Assembly: GCA_029946105.1 (NCBI GenBank)
Contig: JAQSDW010000218.1
Span: 1 to 64,000 of the forward strand
Origin: Reyranella sp.
GTDB lineage: Bacteria; Pseudomonadota; Alphaproteobacteria; Reyranellales; Reyranellaceae
Direction: 5' to 3'
DNA: 64,000 bases
This document shows positions 3,178-17,095 of this stretch, piece by piece; position 1 is the first letter of the stretch; each line of letters opens with the position of its first letter. A program made the translations under genes and the position numbers. The notes under the pieces were generated by a model that saw only the letters and a list, made by a program, of their open reading frames with translations, made no database searches and had not been told where the DNA came from.

Positions 3178-3219
3178 TTGGATAGTGATCGTTCGCTCCC
3201 AGGAGGCTTACTGAGCATC

Positions 3220-4077
3220 GTGTTCCGTCTGGCTCGCATCTTCGCCGTTTTCCTCCTGCTGACCGCGATGTTCGGTGCTGCCGTTGTTTGGGTCGGCATT
3301 CCCTATCTGGAACGCCGGTGGGCCTTCTTTCCGGCGTCGTCTGCTTCTGCACAACTGTGGCAAATGCCGGTGGACGCGATGGAGGTTTCGTTTCCAACTT
3401 CGGATGGCGACCGCCTGACGGGCTGGTTCTTTGGCAGCAAGGGACCGCAGAACGGGATTACGGTGCTTCTGCTGCATGGCAATGAAGGCGTTCTCCCGGA
3501 TTATTTGCCGGAGGTCCAGATTCTTCAGACGCTCGGCTTCAATATGCTGTTGTTCAACTATCGAGGCTTCGGCAAGAGTGAAGGCACTACACTGGGGGAG
3601 ACGACGCTCGACCTCGATGGGGCGGCGGCACTGCGCTACCTGACGAACGAGCGCGGCATCGATCCCCACGCTATTGCACTGCTGGGCGTTTCCCTTGGTG
3701 CAGCAGTGGCGGCTGACCTCGCCACGACGTCGCCGTGCCGCGCTGTCGCTCTCCTCGGCGCCTTTGCATCTTCCAGGGAGCAGGTCGCCAGGCTGGAGGC
3801 TTGGCGTAGCAAGCCCTGGCTGCCGGAGTTTCTTCTCGATTTCCTGAGCAGCCCCTTCGACACGCTCGACATAATCGACCAGGCAAACTGCCCTGTACTG
3901 ATCATTCATGGCCAGAACGACAGATTTGTCCCAATTGAACAAGCTTGGGAACTCTATGATGCGGCACGGCCACCCAAGCGACTTATCGTCGTCCCGGGCG
4001 GCGCGCATGGTCTTCCGACCTCAGAAGGCCGCCGCTATCTCTCTGAGTTGGCTTCGTTCTTCATCAACAGACGATGA
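3220..4077 (+). CDS. Membrane-anchored alpha/beta hydrolase
   Basis: A serine hydrolase of the BEM46/YsgA-like alpha/beta group, about 285 residues. An N-terminal hydrophobic helix (about residues 5-25) should anchor it with the catalytic domain in the periplasm. The fold is shown by LLLHGNEG (oxyanion), FNYRGFGKSEG, the nucleophile elbow GVSLGA, the acid in HGQNDRFVP and the histidine in GGAHGLP. I prefer the GTG at 3220. An AGGAGG lies 13 bp upstream, a little far; a TTG at 3178 or CTG at 3211 are alternatives. Codon usage differs from the neighbours, suggesting recent acquisition. Confidence 0.8.
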   Translation: MFRLARIFAVFLLLTAMFGAAVVWVGIPYLERRWAFFPASSASAQLWQMPVDAMEVSFPTSDGDRLTGWFFGSKGPQNGITVLLLHGNEGVLPDYLPEVQILQTLGFNMLLFNYRGFGKSEGTTLGETTLDLDGAAALRYLTNERGIDPHAIALLGVSLGAAVAADLATTSPCRAVALLGAFASSREQVARLEAWRSKPWLPEFLLDFLSSPFDTLDIIDQANCPVLIIHGQNDRFVPIEQAWELYDAARPPKRLIVVPGGAHGLPTSEGRRYLSELASFFINRR

Positions 4078-4188: not shown

Positions 4189-4308
4189 GGAAATGCTCTG
4201 GGAGATGTATGCGTGCCGCAGGAGAAGGCGCAGCTCGCGATGATCATGAAGGGCGGCGTGCGTTACGTGACCTGCGAAGGCGCACTGCATGTAAGAAGAC
4301 TGCACTAG
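4189..4308 (+). pseudogene. 3' remnant of a second amidohydrolase copy
   Basis: In frame, these 40 codons read GNALGDV...KGGVRYVTCEGA...HVRRLH and stop. They match the last 39 residues of the intact amidohydrolase (1291-2562) at 30 of 39 positions, and both copies share the terminal HVRRLH plus stop. No upstream part of the gene is present; sequence before 4189 does not align. It marks either a decayed tandem duplicate or the far edge of an insertion that brought in 2563-4188. Confidence 0.85.
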
Positions 4309-4478: not shown

Positions 4479-5033
4479 ATGCGCGCTGTCGATGGGATTG
4501 TTCGTTTCGATGGGAAGACACCAGGCGTTGCTGTGAAGGTGTCGACGCTGCTCGCCGTCGGTATTGCCCTGGCCTCGCCGCCGGCGCTGTCGCAAGGCGC
4601 CATGGGGTCTGGCGGAGTGCCGATGGCGCCTCAGCCGCGTGTCGCCCCGGCACCGCAGGCGCCCGCTGCACTCCAGGCCCCGGTCGTGGCGCCACAAATG
4701 CCACTCGTCATGCCGCCGCCCTCTGTCACCCAGTCTGGCACCACAAGTCAGCCTCAGAAGACTTTGAGGGTCATCAACAATTCCGAGACGGAACCGGCGA
4801 CAGTCGAGGCGCAATTCTCGAAAACGGCCAAGGGCACCGCAGGCGCCGGCCCCTCGCAATCCGTCAATAGTGGTTCCAACAGGGATCACATCGATCAAGA
4901 CGCCCAGACTGACATCAAGAAGGGGCTCACGACGTCCAGTGGAAATCCAACCAACGGACACGGCAGTCCCCAAAGAACCACTGTGGGCTCGACTCCGACG
5001 AATGGTATCGGCGGCATGGGAGGTGGGAGATAA
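4479..5033 (+). CDS. Secreted proline-rich protein, hypothetical (first of five-gene locus)
   Basis: A 184-residue exported protein of unknown function. ATG 4479 is chosen because GGAGG lies 5 bp upstream. A long, basic n-region precedes a hydrophobic core (about residues 22-35) and a likely cut after ALS. The mature protein opens QGAM...MAPQPRVAP, followed by a Pro/Ala-rich stretch. This signature recurs in the proteins at 5042 and 7786. The rest is Ser/Thr/Gly/Asn-rich and probably disordered, ending GGMGGGR. The segment PQKTLRVINNSE resembles the strand before the modules in its paralogues. Only 8 bp separate it from the next gene. Confidence 0.72.
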   Translation: MRAVDGIVRFDGKTPGVAVKVSTLLAVGIALASPPALSQGAMGSGGVPMAPQPRVAPAPQAPAALQAPVVAPQMPLVMPPPSVTQSGTTSQPQKTLRVINNSETEPATVEAQFSKTAKGTAGAGPSQSVNSGSNRDHIDQDAQTDIKKGLTTSSGNPTNGHGSPQRTTVGSTPTNGIGGMGGGR

Positions 5034-5041
5034 ATCATAAA

Positions 5042-6628
5042 GTGAAGGCGCGGCCATTGGCGCGCGCCCTGTCTCTGCTCGCCGCTGGCATCGGCCTGCT
5101 GTGGCAGCCAGCTTTCGCCCAGGGCCCCATGTCGCCGGGAGGCGGGGCCATGGCGCCCCAACCGCGCGTGGCGCCGCCACCACCGCCACCCCCGATCCCG
5201 CCGCCGGTAATGGCGCCCGCATCGCCCGGCATGCAGCCTGGCGCGCCGGCGTCTGTCGCGCCGCGCAGCGGGTCGACGTCAGACACCAACGTTCCCAGGA
5301 GTACCGTCAATGAGTTGCCGCGGCCGGCCGATCGTCCGTCGGTGACGACGGGTGGCAGCACGACCAAGAGCCCGGACACCGGTTCGCCTCCGCCTCAGAC
5401 CAGTTCGCCTTCGCCTCAGAATCGCGCGCCTGCGCCGACCGCCGGCAGCACGCCCGGGCGAGTGGCGCCGGTGGCAGCACCTGTCGCCCCCACCGTAGAT
5501 CGTTCGACGGCCATCGCTTCGGTGTCGAGAGGTCTGTTGCCGGCACGCGATGTCGCCGTCGTCACCACCGACGGCAGCGGCGGTGCGCGAACGCAGGTCA
5601 AGACCAACGACAAGGGCCAGTTCTCGTTCGGCCCGCTGTCGCCCGGCGTTCGCGACGTTACTTTCCCGATCGCCGATCTCCAGCGTGCGCTGTCGGACGG
5701 CGGGACCAAGAAGCGCTTGCCCAGCGTGACAGTCAGCCTGGTCGTTCCCGCCATGCCGGGCGCGGCACCGCGCGGCAATCTGGTCGCGCATACTTATTCG
5801 CGCATCGATCCCAACAAGGACATCCGCGCCAAGATCACGATTCCCAAGGACGGCAGCGGCGCGATCGTGGATTGGGGCGACGGCACGCCGCCGATCAACG
5901 TGGTCCGCCAGGGGTGGCCAATCGATGTCGGTAAGGAGCGCCGGCCTGTCGAAACGATCGGCACGATTTCGTTCGTGCCCAAGTTCCAGAAGATGCAGTT
6001 CTTCTCGCCGCCGCCCTGCGAGCCGTGGTGGCAGTGCGTGCCGCCGCCGCCGCCCGATGGCGATCCGCCGATGGACGATCCCTGGACGGAGCTCCCCCCC
6101 GAGACCTACCCGCCGCCGGAAGATCCCATCATCGAGATTGTCGAAATCGACGATCCGCCCAAGGTCGACCCGCCCCAGGTAGATCCTCCAAAGGTCGATC
6201 CACCCAGGATCGACGACAAGGGGAAGTTCGACATCGGGCCGCTGCTGGGCACCCGCGTGATCAACGTGTCCCTGCCGCAATCGGGCAAGATCGTCACCGA
6301 TCCGCCGAAGCCGCCGGTCAAGGTGGCACTCCTCCTGCCATCCGAACCACGCGCGGCCGTTGAGGCGATGAACGCCGGTGGACGGCCGCCGCTGGTTCGC
6401 GCGTCCGATCGGCTCTTCCTGGTCGAGCATATCTACGCGCCGGACACGACGGGCCAGACGCTGCGCGTCACGGTCACCGTGGCCAAGGACGGCGAGAGTG
6501 CGCTGGTCGACTGGGGCGACGGCACGCCGGTGACGAATGTTCGCCGCGACGGCAAGCCGATCGCCGCGGCCAGCGTCGACCACGAAGCCATCGGTCGCAT
6601 CCTTTTCGTCGAAGCCAAGAAAAAGTAG
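5042..6628 (+). CDS. Secreted proline-rich protein with two DWGDG modules
   Basis: A 528-residue exported protein, starting at GTG 5042. Signal peptide about 1-26 (PAFA|Q); the mature start QGPM...MAPQPRVAP runs into poly-proline. Residues 166-311 and 385-523 are two copies of one module. Each has a prealbumin/SpaA-like strand pair (DKGQFSFGPLSPG; DKGKFDIGPLLG), a central vxvLLxP strand, and a terminal KDGxxxxVDWGDGTPxxNV block like PKD or transthyretin-type beta domains. The linker carries CEPWWQC (Cys326/Cys332) and four VDPP-type pentapeptides. No enzymatic motif. I infer a cell-surface structural or adhesive protein. It shares its operon with an outer-membrane barrel. Confidence 0.8.
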   Translation: MKARPLARALSLLAAGIGLLWQPAFAQGPMSPGGGAMAPQPRVAPPPPPPPIPPPVMAPASPGMQPGAPASVAPRSGSTSDTNVPRSTVNELPRPADRPSVTTGGSTTKSPDTGSPPPQTSSPSPQNRAPAPTAGSTPGRVAPVAAPVAPTVDRSTAIASVSRGLLPARDVAVVTTDGSGGARTQVKTNDKGQFSFGPLSPGVRDVTFPIADLQRALSDGGTKKRLPSVTVSLVVPAMPGAAPRGNLVAHTYSRIDPNKDIRAKITIPKDGSGAIVDWGDGTPPINVVRQGWPIDVGKERRPVETIGTISFVPKFQKMQFFSPPPCEPWWQCVPPPPPDGDPPMDDPWTELPPETYPPPEDPIIEIVEIDDPPKVDPPQVDPPKVDPPRIDDKGKFDIGPLLGTRVINVSLPQSGKIVTDPPKPPVKVALLLPSEPRAAVEAMNAGGRPPLVRASDRLFLVEHIYAPDTTGQTLRVTVTVAKDGESALVDWGDGTPVTNVRRDGKPIAAASVDHEAIGRILFVEAKKK

Positions 6629-6644
6629 CTGTAGGGTCAAGTTC

Positions 6645-7706
6645 ATGAAAATCAGTCTGTTTGCCGTATCCGTCGTCGCGTCGAGTGTCGTCCTGGCGGG
6701 GCCTGCCCTTGCGCAATTGTCGCCGGGGACGACGACCAACACCACCGTGTCCACGGCGCCCACGGCGTCGGCGCAATCGACGGTCGTCAGCAGCGGCATT
6801 CAAAGCCAGAGCAATACGACGGCCTACGTCACCCTGCCGGGTATCAGTTCGGTGATTCAGCAGACGTTGCTGGGGCCGAAATTGGTCGGGCCGCGCGCGG
6901 GCGCGGAACTCAGCCCGATGAATGGCGGCCCGGGGCACAGCGGCGTGTCAGCGGGCGACGACCCGTGGGGCTGGCAGGCGTGGATCCAGGGCGGCGGCGG
7001 CAACACAGTAAACAGCCTGGCGACCGGCGGCTACAACATCGCCAACTACGGAACCCAGCTCGGCCTGCAGGCGCAGATTACGCCGAAGTTCCTGTTCGGT
7101 GTCAGCGGCTCCTGGCAGGGATCGAACGGCACGCTGAACGGCGGCTTCTCGTCGACCAACTCGACCTTCGGCGTCACGGCCTATGCCGGCTGGCAGTTCA
7201 ACGAGAACTGGAACGCCTCGGCGATGGCTGGCTACAGCGGTGGTTCGAGCTCGCTCACCAATTCCACCTCCAACTACAGCGCCAGCTATGGCAACAGCCA
7301 ATGGAACTTCCAGGGCGGGCTCAACGGCTACTACAAGGTGGGCGCCGTGGTCCTGGCGCCGATGGTGTCGATCCTCTATTCGCCGATCAACAGCTTCGGC
7401 TACACCGACAGCAACCTCGTCGTCGTGCCCGGCCAGACCACTTCGCTCACCCGCGGCTCGGCCGGCGGCTTCATCAGCCTGCCGCTGGAAAAGTGGCAGC
7501 CCTACGTCCGCGCCACCATCGAGCAGGACTTCGCCATGCCGACCGGCAGCGCGCCCAACGGCTCGACCGGCGGCACCGTGGGCGTCGGTGCCACGATCCC
7601 GCTCACCGACTCGCTCTGGGCCTCGATCGACGGCGGCTACAATTCGATCGGGCGCGTCGCGCTGTCGTCATGGTCTGGCAGCGCGCGTCTCAGCCTGCGA
7701 TTCTGA
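6645..7706 (+). CDS. Outer-membrane beta-barrel (autotransporter-type) protein
   Basis: A 353-residue protein. ATG 6645 is favoured because it opens MKISLFAVSVVASSVV, a clean signal peptide cut after ALA at residue 23. Residues 24-105 are Thr/Ser/Gln-rich and low in structure. From about residue 108 (WGWQAWIQGGGG) alternating hydrophobic/polar strands with many Gly, Asn and aromatic residues run to the C-terminus SARLSLRF. The terminal Phe is the usual recognition signal for outer-membrane insertion. It resembles a stand-alone autotransporter translocator domain lacking a long passenger. Its place between secreted proline-rich proteins suggests a port or anchor for them (inference). Confidence 0.82.
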   Translation: MKISLFAVSVVASSVVLAGPALAQLSPGTTTNTTVSTAPTASAQSTVVSSGIQSQSNTTAYVTLPGISSVIQQTLLGPKLVGPRAGAELSPMNGGPGHSGVSAGDDPWGWQAWIQGGGGNTVNSLATGGYNIANYGTQLGLQAQITPKFLFGVSGSWQGSNGTLNGGFSSTNSTFGVTAYAGWQFNENWNASAMAGYSGGSSSLTNSTSNYSASYGNSQWNFQGGLNGYYKVGAVVLAPMVSILYSPINSFGYTDSNLVVVPGQTTSLTRGSAGGFISLPLEKWQPYVRATIEQDFAMPTGSAPNGSTGGTVGVGATIPLTDSLWASIDGGYNSIGRVALSSWSGSARLSLRF

Positions 7707-7785
7707 TCTGCTTCGTTGGCATGGGCGGTGATTGCTCCATGGGGGCATTCACCGCTCGCAAATTTCGCCGGATTTTTTGGAGGAC

Positions 7786-9660
7786 ATGATGCGTCGACGG
7801 ATTGTATGCGCGGCAGGGGCAGTGCTCCTGGCCGGTCTCGGCGGCTGGGCACCACAGGCACTTTCTCAAGGCGCCATGACACCCCGGCCAGACATGCCGC
7901 CGCGCGTCGCACCGCCGCCGCCGCCGCCGCCACCTCCCATGGTCGCGCCGACCCCGCCAATGGTGCCCCTGGCCCCCGTGATGACGCCTCCGGCTCCGCC
8001 CGCTCCGAAACCGAAGGCGCCGACGGCCTCCGCTCCGGCGACGCCGGTCGCGCCAACTCCGACCCCAACCCCACCTCCGGCTGCGACCGCATCACAGGCC
8101 GTGCCGCGCGGCACCGCCGGCGCGCCGCCGCCCTACACGGACTCGCAGGTGAAAGCGCTGCCCGGGATCGGTGTGAGCTGGCAGAGCCCCAATGGCCCGC
8201 GTCAGGCCACCAGCGGCTCCAACGGTGACGTGTCGCTTGGCAAGTTGGGACCCGGCAGCCACGAACTGACCATCAATCAAAAGATTCTCGGCGCCGGTAC
8301 CGGCAACAAGCCCGCCGTTCTCGGCTTGTTGCTTCCGGCCGTGCAGAACGTGCGTGAAGGCGCGCGCCGCTATGTGACGGTCGTCGTCACGCCGGTCAAC
8401 GACCAGCCGACCCTCCGGATCAAGGTCGACGTCGACGCCAAGGGCCAAGTGTCCAATATCAACTGGGGCAATGGTATCGGCGTCAATGTCGCGGTCGGTG
8501 ACATTAACGGCGACGGGCAGTCGGACCTGAAGCTGTTCGAGGATCTCGCCAAACGCAACACGTCCGGCGAGACCAAGCTTGCGTTCGTTCTCCCGCTGGC
8601 TCGCATGGGAACGGGACCGGGCGGGCCCTCCGTGCCGGCGCCGGCGGGGCTGCGCGGTGGCTTCATTATTCCGCTAATCGCCGTGGTCGCCCTCCAAGGC
8701 CCTGGCGGCGCCTCGGTCGGCACGGGCAAGACCGACAACACGGGCCAGATCGCCTTTCAGAATCTGCCGGCCGGCCGCTACACCGCCCGGCTCGAGGGCA
8801 AGGACCTGCCAGCGGGCACCTCCGGCCCGGTGACCGCTATCGCGACCGTCAACGGCACGGAGACGGCGCGCACGACCTTCGACGTGCCGGCCGGCGGTGC
8901 CAGCACGCGCAGCTTCGACCTGCCCTTCGATGTCGGTCCGCCGCCGCCCGGTCTTACGGGTACGACGGCCGTCGTGTCGCTGCTCGTTCCCGCCGGCATA
9001 GCGGAGGCGAATTCGGCGCTGCAGGAAGTAAGCAAAACGCCCTTGGGTACCTCGCAGGGAAATGCCGGGACGCCAGTCACCGGCACGCCCCCGGCTCCAG
9101 CGCTCGATCCGTTGACCGACGGGCTCCTAATAATCCGTTACATCGGCGTGACCGCGACAGGTCCCAGTGGCGTGCGGCAGACGCGGAGCGACGGCGAGGG
9201 CTGGACGCGGTTCGACAAGCTGCCGATCGGTAACACGATCCTCGAATTCAGCGGCGCGGACCTTGCGTCGGCACTGAAGGCGACGGTGGGGCCGAACACG
9301 CCGCAGCCGCAAAAGACCCTGATCGAACTGCTGGTCGTCATCGCGATCGTGGCGATAAAGACGGACGGCATGCCGGTGGTCTTCACCGGATCGGTGCCGG
9401 CCAGTGCCGTGAAGACTCTTAAGGCTGACCTTCGAGTCGGCCGCGACGGCAATCTCATGGACGTCGATTTTGGCAATGGTCCGCAGTTGCCGCAGACTCT
9501 GACGAAGACGGGGCCTGGTACGTTGATCTTGACGGCCCCCAATGGTGTCATTCCGCTTAGCCCGGCGTTTGTGAAGTCCCTGCAAGATCGCGCAGACAAG
9601 GCCCCCCCCGGCATGGTGGAAGCGAATACTGCGATGCTGGATGTAAGCACCACGCGATGA
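7786..9660 (+). CDS. Secreted proline-rich protein with three prealbumin-like modules
   Basis: A 624-residue exported protein; ATG 7786 (or 7789) follows TTGGAGGA. Signal peptide about 1-27 (QALS|Q), then QGAM...PPRVAP and about 80 residues of Pro/Ala. Modules at roughly 126-263, 297-425 and 447-620 each begin with a prealbumin-like pair (NGDVSLGKLGPG; NTGQIAFQNLPAG; GEGWTRFDKLPIG). Modules 1 and 3 contain NWGNG or DFGNG in place of DWGDG. Residues 238-250 (GDINGDGQSDLKL) look like a dockerin-type calcium loop. Residues 181-195 and 510-525 resemble type IV pseudopilin/DUF1559 signatures. The sequences G[IM].EAN.A...VS.T close modules 2 and 3. Function unknown; a surface fibre or adhesin is plausible. 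Confidence 0.78.
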   Translation: MMRRRIVCAAGAVLLAGLGGWAPQALSQGAMTPRPDMPPRVAPPPPPPPPPMVAPTPPMVPLAPVMTPPAPPAPKPKAPTASAPATPVAPTPTPTPPPAATASQAVPRGTAGAPPPYTDSQVKALPGIGVSWQSPNGPRQATSGSNGDVSLGKLGPGSHELTINQKILGAGTGNKPAVLGLLLPAVQNVREGARRYVTVVVTPVNDQPTLRIKVDVDAKGQVSNINWGNGIGVNVAVGDINGDGQSDLKLFEDLAKRNTSGETKLAFVLPLARMGTGPGGPSVPAPAGLRGGFIIPLIAVVALQGPGGASVGTGKTDNTGQIAFQNLPAGRYTARLEGKDLPAGTSGPVTAIATVNGTETARTTFDVPAGGASTRSFDLPFDVGPPPPGLTGTTAVVSLLVPAGIAEANSALQEVSKTPLGTSQGNAGTPVTGTPPAPALDPLTDGLLIIRYIGVTATGPSGVRQTRSDGEGWTRFDKLPIGNTILEFSGADLASALKATVGPNTPQPQKTLIELLVVIAIVAIKTDGMPVVFTGSVPASAVKTLKADLRVGRDGNLMDVDFGNGPQLPQTLTKTGPGTLILTAPNGVIPLSPAFVKSLQDRADKAPPGMVEANTAMLDVSTTR

Positions 9661-9670
9661 TGACCGACCC

Positions 9671-10513
9671 ATGGGCGTCATGGGTTTTCGCCTAGCCAGT
9701 ATCGCGACCGTAATGGCGATACAGGCGGCAATGTTGGCCGCGTGCGGACACGCCGGGCCGGGCCGCGATACGACAGCCGCCGGGATTGCACAGGCGGCAG
9801 GTCTGGAGGCTGGCACGTCGACCGGTGCGGTCTTCGCCCTTCAGGTCTATCGGCGGGATGACGGCAGAGCGGGGCCGCTCTTCGTCTACATCGAGGGCGA
9901 TGGTCTCGCCTATCTCGACGCACGCACGCCTTCCACCGATCCGACGCCGGTCGATCCGCTGGCGCTGCGCCTGGCCGCGGCCGACCCGGGCCCGGCCGTG
10001 CTCTACCTCGCGCGGCCCTGCCAGTTCGCATCAGGCCGTGCCGACCCGCGCTGCAGCGTGCGCGCCTGGACGACCGCCCGGTTCGGCGCCGACGTCGTGG
10101 CGTCGATCGACGGCGCCATCGATCGCGCGCATGCGATGGCGCCCGCCCGGCCGCTGGTGCTGGTGGGCTATTCCGGCGGCGGGGTTATCGCTGCCCTCGT
10201 GGCCGCGCGCCGCACGGATGTGGCGCTGCTGGTCACGATCGCGGCGCCTCTCGACGTGGCGGACTGGACCCGCCGCATGGGCGTGTCGCCACTCGATGGG
10301 TCGGGGTCTCCGCTCGATCATGTGGATCGCCTCTCCGGGGTGCGGCTGGTCGCCTTCGCCGGACAGCAGGACAAGACGGTGCCCGTCGCATCGATTGCGT
10401 CCGCCGTCGAAAAGTTCGGCCCGTCCGCGGAGCTGATCGTCGTGCCGGAATTCGATCATCGCTGCTGCTGGGTGCGTGACTGGCCGCGTCTGCGCGCGCA
10501 AGCGCTGCGGTAG
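9671..10513 (+). CDS. Alpha/beta hydrolase lipoprotein
   Basis: A 280-residue hydrolase predicted to be lipid-anchored. The signal sequence ends MLAAC, with Cys25 as the acylation site. The catalytic set is Ser168 in GYSGGG, Asp234 in GQQDKTVP and His263 in EFDHRCC. FVYIEGDGLAY and LARPCQFA are usual in esterase-like family members of proteobacterial envelopes. It begins 10 bp after the modular protein gene and so is read as the last gene of the five-gene locus, perhaps processing or maturing its surface partners (inference). ATG 9680 is a possible alternative start. Confidence 0.8.
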   Translation: MGVMGFRLASIATVMAIQAAMLAACGHAGPGRDTTAAGIAQAAGLEAGTSTGAVFALQVYRRDDGRAGPLFVYIEGDGLAYLDARTPSTDPTPVDPLALRLAAADPGPAVLYLARPCQFASGRADPRCSVRAWTTARFGADVVASIDGAIDRAHAMAPARPLVLVGYSGGGVIAALVAARRTDVALLVTIAAPLDVADWTRRMGVSPLDGSGSPLDHVDRLSGVRLVAFAGQQDKTVPVASIASAVEKFGPSAELIVVPEFDHRCCWVRDWPRLRAQALR

Positions 10514-13821: not shown

Positions 13822-14367
13822 GTGACGGAACTGAACCAGACCGACCTGCAGACGCTCGTGACGGGCAACAAGCGCGCGTGGGACAGGTTTGTCACCGCGG
13901 CCGCACCCCTCATCAATGCTGTCGTGCGGCGCACCATGTCGTCCTACCGTTTGGGCGAGGACGACGTCTTGGATGCGGCCCAGGACGTCTTTGTGCGCCT
14001 TTGCGCCGGCGATTTCCGGCTGCTCAAGACCTACGATCCGGCGCGGGCCGGCCTCAGCACCTGGCTGGCCGTGGTCGCCCGGTCGGCCGCTGTGGATCAT
14101 TTGCGTCGCCGCCGGCAGGCCACCGAACCGCTCGACGACGTGCCGGAATCGGCCCTCGGGGTCGAGGACAAGCACGTCGAAAAACTCCAGATTCCCCAAG
14201 GGCTTCTGACCGAACGTCAAACCTTGATCTTGAAGTGCCTGTACGACGAGGAGCGCGACGTTTCCGAAGTGGCGGTCTTGCTCAAGATCGACGCCCAGAC
14301 GGTCCGCAGCACCCATCATAAGGCCCTGTTGCGATTGCGGGCTCATTTCGGCGAGGAACCACCCTGA
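13822..14367 (+). CDS. RNA polymerase sigma factor, ECF type
   Basis: A 181-residue sigma-70 family protein with only regions 2 and 4. Region 2 includes RRTMSSYRLGEDDVLDAAQDVFVRLC and the -10 contact segment STWLAVVARSAAVDHLRRRRQ. Region 4 has the HTH ERDVSEVAVLLKIDAQTVRS. The start is GTG 13822. It heads a five-gene row with an anti-sigma-like membrane protein, a CpxP-like protein and the DUF1800/DUF1501 pair, so it probably answers an envelope or metal signal and activates its own operon. It diverges from the GGT gene. Confidence 0.9.
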   Translation: MTELNQTDLQTLVTGNKRAWDRFVTAAAPLINAVVRRTMSSYRLGEDDVLDAAQDVFVRLCAGDFRLLKTYDPARAGLSTWLAVVARSAAVDHLRRRRQATEPLDDVPESALGVEDKHVEKLQIPQGLLTERQTLILKCLYDEERDVSEVAVLLKIDAQTVRSTHHKALLRLRAHFGEEPP

Positions 14368-14432
14368 AATCGGATCGTGGAATCGGGGATGAAACGGGGC
14401 TTTATGACGTATTGAGGGCAAGAGAGGGTGCA

Positions 14433-14963
14433 ATGAGCACGGAACGCGTATCCCGGACCGACAAGGAGCTGTGGCGGAGCATCGCCCCGGAACGGGGTGT
14501 CGCGCCTGAAGCAGTGTCGGACATCGATTTCGCCGCCTGGCTGGAAGGCCGCCTTCCCGAGGCGGCTGCGGCGCGGATCGAAGCGGCGGTTGGCGCCGAT
14601 CCGGCGTTGCGGCGCGCGGCCCTCGATCTCGCGGATATTTTGGGCAAGCCGCTGCCGGCGGCACCGGCCCGACTGGCCGTGCGCGCCCAGGCGCTGGTTG
14701 GTTTCGACGCCGAGCGCGAGACCGGTCGCAGTGGCGGCTGGTTCGGCCGCTTGTTCGCCTCCGGGCCGCTCTTCGCCCTGCAGCGCGCGGCGATGATCGC
14801 CATGGTGGTCGTGGTGGCGGGCGCCGGCTTCGTGATGGGCGGTGGCCTGGGCGATTCGTTTGCCCAGCAGAGATATGGCTCGGACGTTCAAGGCGCCTCG
14901 AGCACGACGACGACCACCACGTCGAGCGAGCTGAGCGACTTCTTCGTCAGCGACGGCATCTGA
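14433..14963 (+). CDS. Anti-sigma-like single-pass membrane protein
   Basis: A 176-residue protein likely to hold the preceding sigma factor inactive. The cytoplasmic part (about 1-110) has the helix DIDFAAWLEGRLPEAAAARIEAAVGADPA, placed like the anti-sigma domain of ZAS proteins but without the His-x3-Cys-x2-Cys zinc ligands. One transmembrane helix spans about residues 116-140 (AAMIAMVVVVAGAGFVMGGG). A short Thr/Ser-rich tail is left outside. Position just after a sigma gene supports the call; direct proof of binding is lacking. It ends one base before the next start codon. Confidence 0.72.
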   Translation: MSTERVSRTDKELWRSIAPERGVAPEAVSDIDFAAWLEGRLPEAAAARIEAAVGADPALRRAALDLADILGKPLPAAPARLAVRAQALVGFDAERETGRSGGWFGRLFASGPLFALQRAAMIAMVVVVAGAGFVMGGGLGDSFAQQRYGSDVQGASSTTTTTTSSELSDFFVSDGI

Positions 14964-14964
14964 C

Positions 14965-15558
14965 ATGGGCTCGCGGCTGATCCAGGTTCTGCTCGGCCTG
15001 TCGCTTTTGTTGAACACCTTCGTGCTGGTGGGCTTCGTCTACAGCAGCTGGATTTCGCCGCCGACCTTCGAGCGGCATATGCCACCACCACCACCGCCGC
15101 CACCGGGCACCCGGCCGAGCCCTGTCGAGATGCTGATCAAGGATCTCGGGCTCGACGATGGCCAGCGTGATGCGCTGCGGGGCCAGTTGGAGCTCTATAC
15201 AGCCGCGCGGCGCGAGCGCTTCCGCGAGATCCAGAAGATCCGCGATCAGACAGCGGCCGAACTCGCGCGGCCGCAGATCGACATGACGCGGATCGACGGG
15301 TTGATCGACCAGATCACCAAGTTGCGGGCGGACCAGTGGAAGGAAAGCCTGCATGCCATGGCTCAACTCGAGCCGCAGCTGCGCCCCGATCAACGCGAGC
15401 GCCTGCATGTGCTGCTCGTCGAGCGCTTTGCCGGTGCGCCGCCGCCGCCACCGCGTCCGCCGGGTGGTCCCGGCGGTCCTGGGGGCGGCCCACCGCCGGG
15501 TCCCGGTGGCCGGACACCGGGCGCCCCCGGCCCGGGACCTGGCCGTCCACCTCAATAG
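14965..15558 (+). CDS. CpxP/Spy-like periplasmic sensor protein (heavy-metal sensor family)
   Basis: A 197-residue membrane-tethered periplasmic protein. One N-terminal helix (about 5-27) is followed by PPPPPPPG, then a helical domain (about 50-150) with LGLDDGQRDALRGQLELY and a second LRPDQRERLHVLL. These are degenerate forms of the LTxxQ motif of CpxP/Spy. The tail from residue 155 is Pro/Gly-rich. Family members bind unfolded proteins or metal ions and feed back on envelope-stress signalling, which fits its place behind a sigma/anti-sigma pair. Confidence 0.75.
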   Translation: MGSRLIQVLLGLSLLLNTFVLVGFVYSSWISPPTFERHMPPPPPPPPGTRPSPVEMLIKDLGLDDGQRDALRGQLELYTAARRERFREIQKIRDQTAAELARPQIDMTRIDGLIDQITKLRADQWKESLHAMAQLEPQLRPDQRERLHVLLVERFAGAPPPPPRPPGGPGGPGGGPPPGPGGRTPGAPGPGPGRPPQ

Positions 15559-15571
15559 GAGGAGCGTCGTC

Positions 15572-17095
15572 ATGACCGTTCGTCTCCACCGGCGTGGTTT
15601 CGTCACAGGTACGGCGGCACTTTCCGCGGCACTGTGGGCGCCGCGCCCGGGGCGCGCGGCCGCCGCAATGGATTTCGACGAGGCGCGTCACCTGCTGTCG
15701 CGGACGGCTTTCGGCGCAACGCCGGCCGAGATCCGCGCCATCGAGGCGCTCGACTATCCCGCCGCGGTTGACCAGCTGCTGGCGACGTTCCGGCCGACGG
15801 CCGCAACGGCCGCGCCCGGCTGGGCCAATGACGGACTGGGAGCACTCCGCGATCAGCAGAAGGCGATGGCCAAGGTCACTGCCGACGGCAGGGCCGTGCA
15901 GGTCCAGCCGCCCTTGCAGGAACAAGGCCGTGAGCTGCGCAACTGGTGGATCGAGGAGATGCTGGCGACGGATCAGCCTCTGGTCGAGCGCATGGTGCTG
16001 TTCTGGCACAATCACTTCACGTCATCGCTGACGAAGACCTACTATCCGGGCTCGCTATACCGGCAGAACGAGATGTTCCGGGCCAGCGCCTTCGGCAACT
16101 TCGCCACCCTGCTGAAATCGGTGGCCCGCGATCCGGCGATGCTTCTCTACCTCGACGGCGTGCGCAACGTGGCGCGCCAGCCCAACGAGAACTTTGCCCG
16201 CGAGTTGCTGGAGCTGTTCACGCTCGGCGAGGGCCACTACACCGAAAGCGATATCAAGGCCGCGGCGCGCGCCTTCACCGGCTGGAGCGTCGATCGCGAG
16301 ACCGGCCGGTTCGTCGAGCGCGCCGGCCAGCACGACGACGGCGAGAAAACTTTCCTCGGCCAGACCGGCCGCTTCGGCGGCGACGAGATCATCGCCATCC
16401 TGCTGAAGCATCCGCGCACCGCCGAGACCATCGTCGAGAAGATGTGGCGCGAGTTTGTCTCGCTCACGCCCGACCCTGCCGCGGTGAAGCGCCTGGCCGC
16501 CCCGTTCCGCGACGGCGGTTATGAGCTCAAGCCGCTGCTGCGCGCGCTGCTCCTGCAGCCGGCGCTCCGCGATCCCGCCAACCGCGGCGCGCTGATCAAG
16601 TCGCCGGTCGACCTGATCGTCGGGACCGTGCGTGTCCTAGGCCTTCCGGTGCCGGAAAAGACCCAGCTTGCCCGCATGATGCAGGGCCTCGGCCAGAGCC
16701 TGTTCAATCCGCCCAACGTCAAGGGCTGGGCCGGCGGCGAGAGCTGGATCACGGCCTACACGCTGCTGCAGCGCCAGCAGATCCTGCGCCGTATCGTCGA
16801 GGCGACGACCGTGGCCTCGATGGAGGGCATGGGCGGCCGCCGCATGGACCGCCGCCAGGCCCAACCTGCGATGGAAGATACGCAGCAGATGATGGAGCCG
16901 CGGCCGGTCGAAGGCCGCAGCCTGCGCAACTCCAGCGGCGCGGCACGGCTCGGCCCGACGCTGCTCGGGGTGGATGCCGCCACCCTGTCGAAAACCTTGC
17001 TGCCGTTCGCGCCGATCGATGCGGTCGAGACCGGCGGCGCGCCGGGCGCGGTTGTTGCCGCGGCACTTCTCGACCCCGCCTACCAGTTGAAATGA
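15572..17095 (+). CDS. DUF1800 protein with Tat signal
   Basis: A 507-residue protein. ATG 15572 follows AGGAGG. The N-terminus HRRGFVTGTAALSAALWA is a twin-arginine export signal ending at about PGRAAAA. The DUF1800 body shows ARHLLSRTAFGATPAEI, RMVLFWHNHFTSS, NENFARELLELFTLGEGHYTE, ARAFTGW and FNPPNVKGWAGG. DUF1800 proteins are nearly always encoded beside DUF1501 proteins, as here, and their function is unknown. The low-complexity RMDRRQAQPAMEDTQQMMEPRP insert near residues 420-445 is probably a flexible loop. The start of the next gene is 10 bp away. Confidence 0.9.
   Translation: MTVRLHRRGFVTGTAALSAALWAPRPGRAAAAMDFDEARHLLSRTAFGATPAEIRAIEALDYPAAVDQLLATFRPTAATAAPGWANDGLGALRDQQKAMAKVTADGRAVQVQPPLQEQGRELRNWWIEEMLATDQPLVERMVLFWHNHFTSSLTKTYYPGSLYRQNEMFRASAFGNFATLLKSVARDPAMLLYLDGVRNVARQPNENFARELLELFTLGEGHYTESDIKAAARAFTGWSVDRETGRFVERAGQHDDGEKTFLGQTGRFGGDEIIAILLKHPRTAETIVEKMWREFVSLTPDPAAVKRLAAPFRDGGYELKPLLRALLLQPALRDPANRGALIKSPVDLIVGTVRVLGLPVPEKTQLARMMQGLGQSLFNPPNVKGWAGGESWITAYTLLQRQQILRRIVEATTVASMEGMGGRRMDRRQAQPAMEDTQQMMEPRPVEGRSLRNSSGAARLGPTLLGVDAATLSKTLLPFAPIDAVETGGAPGAVVAAALLDPAYQLK

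Follow-up and report, generated by a model that had tools for sequence, protein, structure and literature searches.

EstA-type esterase autotransporters (type Va, GDSL lipases) combine a 12-strand translocator barrel with an outer-membrane hydrolase. In EstA the GDSL hydrolase is the passenger and forms one polypeptide with the barrel (PMC9289746). Autotransporters that are accompanied by a conserved neighbouring envelope gene are known from the pairs SadA-SadB and AtaA-TpgA (PMC8151025), but both pairs are of the trimeric kind (type Vc), with a partner that has not been described as a hydrolase. In Bartonella bacilliformis, the effect of a lipoprotein alpha/beta-hydrolase needs porin A, an outer-membrane barrel (PMC12669792). 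The two proteins are comparable to the locus described here by analogy only. Their barrel is of the porin type, about 209 kb separate the two genes, and the hydrolase, with 403 aa, is larger than the one encoded here. Two-partner secretion (type Vb) resembles our locus in that exported modular proteins are encoded beside a barrel, and prealbumin-like repeat proteins (CnaB, CarboxypepD_reg, SdrD_B) show a similar repeat architecture on exported proteins.

The locus is located on contig JAQSDW010000218.1 of a Reyranella sp. assembly (GCA_029946105.1). The window, i.e. the whole stretch of DNA analysed, comprises 64,000 nucleotides. An ORF check confirmed the positions of five plus-strand genes, g1 to g5 (Table 1), and the gaps of 8, 16, 79 and 10 bp that separate them in this order, as given in a first-pass annotation of the sequence. 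Homologues of the locus genes are present in six other Reyranella genomes, and g2 to g5 have dN/dS values of 0.23-0.48 among Reyranella homologues, which indicates purifying selection. Therefore, we regard g1 to g5 as real genes. A promoter and terminator scan detected no promoter-like site, and terminator-like sites were near chance level. An alpha/beta-hydrolase gene located upstream (3178-4077) was considered as a sixth member and rejected, because no homologue adjoins the locus in relatives. This gene sits between the two copies of a 69-bp direct repeat (2494-2562 and 4240-4308; 87% identical), which copies the 3' end of an amidohydrolase-like gene (1291-2562) just upstream of the locus.

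Table 1. Genes of the locus and repeat units of g2 (positions in the window)
Feature	Position	Strand	Description
g1	4479-5033	+	184 aa; short Pro-rich exported protein (predicted)
g2	5042-6628	+	528 aa, GTG start; Pro-rich N-terminus and two repeat units
g2 repeat unit 1	5519-6007	+	CnaB-like strands, LVVPA strand, WGDGT part
g2 repeat unit 2	6212-6625	+	sequence repeat
g3	6645-7706	+	353 aa; translocator-type autotransporter barrel (predicted)
g4	7786-9660	+	624 aa; Pro-rich N-terminus and repeat units
g5	9671-10513	+	280 aa; lipoprotein alpha/beta-hydrolase (predicted)

The g3 product matches the autotransporter beta-domain PF03797 (E 3e-22). Its AlphaFold2 model contains 12 strands within residues 110-352 (barrel pLDDT about 84), and a Foldseek search with this model returned EstA as the best match (1.2e-15), followed by NalP, EspP and BrkA. 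Compared with isolated autotransporter barrels, the target TM-scores were 0.72-0.80, versus about 0.56 for FapF. As in type Va proteins, the PF03797 barrel with its 12 strands is C-terminal and the last residue is aromatic (...RLSLRF). But g3 does not have the passenger of a type Va protein: the signal peptide is followed by about 85 residues, mostly with a pLDDT below 55 and with two predicted helices, before the barrel begins. The family match, the strand number and the fold neighbours thus bear out the earlier description of g3 as an autotransporter-like barrel with almost no passenger. A PDB sequence search with g3 gave nothing useful. Two-partner secretion was rejected for g3, since the barrel has 12 strands instead of the 16 of TpsB, and no POTRA or TpsB family was matched by any of the five proteins (Pfam, NCBIfam); the TPS domain typical of type Vb partners was likewise not matched by g1, g2 or g4 in a Pfam/NCBIfam scan. 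A curli- or Fap-like fibre was also rejected, because no fibre-subunit family was matched in Pfam and NCBIfam and g3 resembles FapF less than it resembles autotransporter translocators. We know of no described role for small passenger-less autotransporter barrels.

The product of g5 carries a lipobox (LAAC, residues 22-25, with Cys25) and the nucleophile motif GYSGG with Ser168. This lipobox, like the RLSLRF terminus of g3, had been noted before and was found in the sequence as described. Ser168, Asp234 and His263 as well as Cys117/128/265/266 are invariant in nine g5 sequences from two alphaproteobacterial families, which include Reyranella and the outgroup genus g179. Asp234 is the probable catalytic acid, as judged by its position. 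No Pfam or NCBIfam model reached its cut-off with g5. With the lipobox and the invariant Ser-Asp-His set, g5 is predicted to be a lipoprotein alpha/beta-hydrolase, in agreement with the annotation of a lipoprotein hydrolase at this position. In contrast to EstA, the hydrolase of this locus is thus a separately encoded alpha/beta-hydrolase lipoprotein and the barrel is passenger-less.

We subsequently compared the surroundings of g3 and g5 homologues outside Reyranella. In a set of 385 genomes of the class, the best g3 matches came from one other genus. In three genomes of that genus (G276, G367, G444), which belongs to another alphaproteobacterial family, a g5 homologue adjoins the barrel in the same order as in Reyranella. 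The pairing recurs in additional genomes of the family, often together with a second barrel without g5. Among 60 alphaproteobacterial g5 loci, 21 contain an autotransporter beta-domain, encoded by the adjacent gene in 20 of these 21; the 21 loci are distributed over 15 families. PF03797 was confirmed by Pfam in all ten barrel neighbours of g5 homologues that were tested. As a control, we scanned 20 stretches of 20 kb (400 kb) from the same genomes, at round coordinates fixed before inspection, and found 0 autotransporter beta-domains. The resulting Fisher p of about 9e-7 (window counts, 21/60 g5 loci versus control) is indicative only, because the loci are those of the better-scoring g5 homologues and independence between the families is incomplete. 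Of 26 further g5 loci sampled across Pseudomonadota, 11 have an adjacent barrel. An annotated autotransporter and an alpha/beta-hydrolase also stand side by side on the Pseudomonas plasmids pQBR57, pTTS12 and that of DN1 and on one Thalassospira plasmid; on three other inspected plasmids they are not adjacent, and a plasmid search with g3 as query gave no match.

None of these barrel-g5 loci outside Reyranella carries Pro-rich proteins. Because the pair recurs there without them, the hydrolase is the conserved partner of the barrel, g3 and g5 representing an old pair, and the Pro-rich proteins were probably a later addition that joined the locus within Reyranella. The barrel-hydrolase pair looks like a small surface system, apparently undescribed: a search of open-access papers yielded nothing on this locus or on a gene pair of a type Va autotransporter and a lipoprotein hydrolase. 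Glycosyltransferase, sulfatase or sugar-epimerase genes are found near the pair in several genomes. In three outgroup loci (L134, L136, L138), where the g5 homologues likewise have a lipobox-like (A/S)GC, the genes after the pair encode a long membrane-like protein (665-746 residues) and then a glycosyltransferase, in place of which L138 has a sulfatase. A Pfam scan assigned no family to this long protein in L134 or L138, nor to a 459-residue protein of L138. One of the outgroup genomes (G276) encodes two nearly identical small barrels (L134, L135), with a hydrolase beside one of them only.

Within the genus, we inspected 65 Reyranella genomes (G000, G007-G070). The g3 barrel is present in seven of them, with 73-100% identity. 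Scattered homologues, which the first-pass annotation had named as an argument against a common locus, were not what we observed: g2 and g3 occur together in the same seven genomes, 56 have neither, and two contain pieces of g2 alone. The constant core of the locus is g2-g3-g5. The order g2-g3-g4-g5 is found in the window, G054, G063 and G011. In G048 and G053, g2-g3-g4 can be followed as far as the contig end and g5 is located on a separate contig, where in G053 it stands behind the tail of g4. G012 has g2-g3-g5, with g4 absent. g1 is located upstream of g2 in only three of the seven genomes (window, G011, G012), and G053 carries g1-like genes at other sites. The gene order is constant across species with barrels differing by up to 27%. 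The expected conserved neighbourhood therefore holds within Reyranella, but the five-gene set does not extend to other alphaproteobacterial genomes. Two metagenome-assembled genomes (G070, L103; G029, L104) contain remnants of the locus, in which g2 runs into g5 and g3 and g4 are missing. This may be a true deletion or a mis-assembly at repeats.

The products of g1, g2 and g4 are paralogues sharing a Pro-rich N-terminus. They have in common a start resembling a signal peptide (assessed by eye as a hydrophobic core with an AxA-type end), the motif QG(A/P)M...P(Q)PRVAP together with a stretch rich in proline; prolines make up 28-38% of the N-terminal parts in g2 and g4. g1 is a paralogue of this N-terminus and does not have the CnaB-like domain of its relatives in L039 and L040. 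In g2, the N-terminus is followed by repeat unit 1, a CEPWWQC motif with an acidic DPP linker, and repeat unit 2. The unit of g2 and g4, about 160 residues long, is made up of CnaB-like strands, a strand of hydrophobic residues (VVPA, LLLP or LLLPAVQ) and a section containing WGDGT or WGNG. Repeat unit 1 of g2 was modelled as a single all-beta domain (pLDDT 82, pTM 0.78), and this model had no significant match among PDB folds; a PDB sequence search with g4 gave nothing useful. g4 passes the cut-off of CarboxypepD_reg (1.5e-9; 38.5 bits, cut-off 32.3), whereas g2 remains below it (18.2 bits) and below every other family cut-off. However, the CnaB, CarboxypepD_reg and SdrD_B models do not cover the WGDG-containing part that continues each unit. 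A g2 profile run against the 385 alphaproteobacterial genomes gave one weak match outside Reyranella, which lay in the Pro-rich N-terminal part (E 2.5e-5), and we therefore take the g2 family as restricted to Reyranella. The number of repeat units in g4 differs between Reyranella species. The genus provides a repeat-protein family in which related species have different unit numbers.

Based on these results, we propose a two-gene barrel-esterase envelope module to which exported repeat proteins specific for Reyranella were added, with g3 and g5 acting together at the surface; we give this reading a probability of roughly 0.45. The fold of g3, the lipidation signal of g5 and the linkage of the two genes point to such a cooperation. 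According to sequence and model, g3 would form a 12-strand barrel inserted in the outer membrane, in which a short plug or linker segment takes the place of the passenger. g5, which has both lipobox and catalytic residues, would be exported as a lipoprotein, presumably anchored in the outer membrane and exposed at the surface, and would be a serine esterase whose putative substrate is an acyl or acetyl ester in the envelope or at the surface. Together, they may form a two-gene counterpart of EstA, in which the barrel helps the hydrolase to reach or act at the surface. g1, g2 and g4 would be Sec-exported; g2 and g4, in which a Pro-rich stalk is joined to beta units in variable number, could decorate the envelope and might be substrates or binding partners of g3 and g5. 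Some observations count against the module. An autotransporter is absent beside about two thirds of the sampled g5-type hydrolases, and second barrels without g5 occur in genomes of genus g179, so neither protein strictly needs the other. Moreover, g4 is located between g3 and g5 in Reyranella, except in G012.

Three other explanations were weighed. Working like part of a split autotransporter, the g3 barrel could export or anchor g1, g2 and g4; export or anchoring by the barrel had been suggested initially. This surface display would agree with the co-occurrence and direct adjacency of g2 and g3 within Reyranella; the conserved QGxM...P(Q)PRVAP N-terminus of g1, g2 and g4 could serve as a docking signal, and one of the g4 relatives contains a PATR repeat (PF12951, 7.9e-12), which is typical of autotransporter passengers. 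But the barrel-hydrolase pair is widespread across Pseudomonadota without any Pro-rich protein, g3 is a 12-strand type Va barrel for which no POTRA was found, the Pro-rich proteins themselves lack a barrel, and g4 is dispensable (G012). Export or anchoring of the Pro-rich proteins as the function of the barrel is thus unsupported, and we consider it unlikely. The formation of fibres is likewise unsupported.

Just as unlikely in our judgement is a role of the hydrolase as a maturation or quality-control accessory of the neighbouring autotransporter, comparable to SadB or TpgA. Dedicated autotransporter neighbours are known for type Vc (PMC8151025). In many pairs the neighbouring autotransporter is a large protein whose passenger spans hundreds of residues (L219, L222, L239, L244; Pseudomonas plasmids), so there the hydrolase may act for this passenger and not for the barrel. 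However, g3 has no passenger to mature, and in g5 the catalytic residues are all retained. Less probable still seems the view that the envelope genes are unrelated, each acting alone, and that their cluster is incidental and held together by chance or shared expression. It would explain why g1 enters and leaves the locus and is found elsewhere in G053, and why g5 homologues are common without barrels, but hardly the adjacency of barrel and hydrolase in 15 families versus 0 in the 400 kb control, nor a gene order in Reyranella that is kept despite the divergence of the barrels. A bolder version of the module goes further: the passenger-less type Va barrel would act in trans by placing or activating a lipoprotein enzyme at the surface, as part of an undescribed phylum-wide two-gene surface-esterase system that was extended in Reyranella with its own repeat proteins. 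We regard this version as rather doubtful. The recurring hydrolase partner provides a concrete and testable idea for the function of small passenger-less barrels, and plasmid pTTS12 of Pseudomonas putida S12 offers a tractable laboratory example of the pair.

Within the g4 family, short patches match unrelated curated motifs at homologous columns where other species carry different sequence (window 9310-9360; residues 422-450 of g4 in L036; g4 of L037 and L043). The g4 relative of G054 contains the full PATR repeat (also TIGR02601, 1.8e-12), and g4 of G063 contains half a PATR. A prepilin-like LIELLVVIAI(I/V)A is present in g4 of the window, G063 and G053; the G063 segment, scanned alone against TIGR02532, scored 17.3 bits (cut-off 16.3). 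An FG-GAP-like patch, VAVGDFNGDGRA, is also found among g4 relatives. Donor DNA for the PATR-like patch was sought in four genomes with no convincing result, and a DUF1559 search of the own genome gave no match, the control set being equally silent. The patches may reflect convergence or patch exchange. Further downstream in the window (13822-17095), ECF-sigma-like, probable anti-sigma/membrane, Pro-rich membrane-anchored and DUF1800-like genes, as judged by eye, are arranged in a row.
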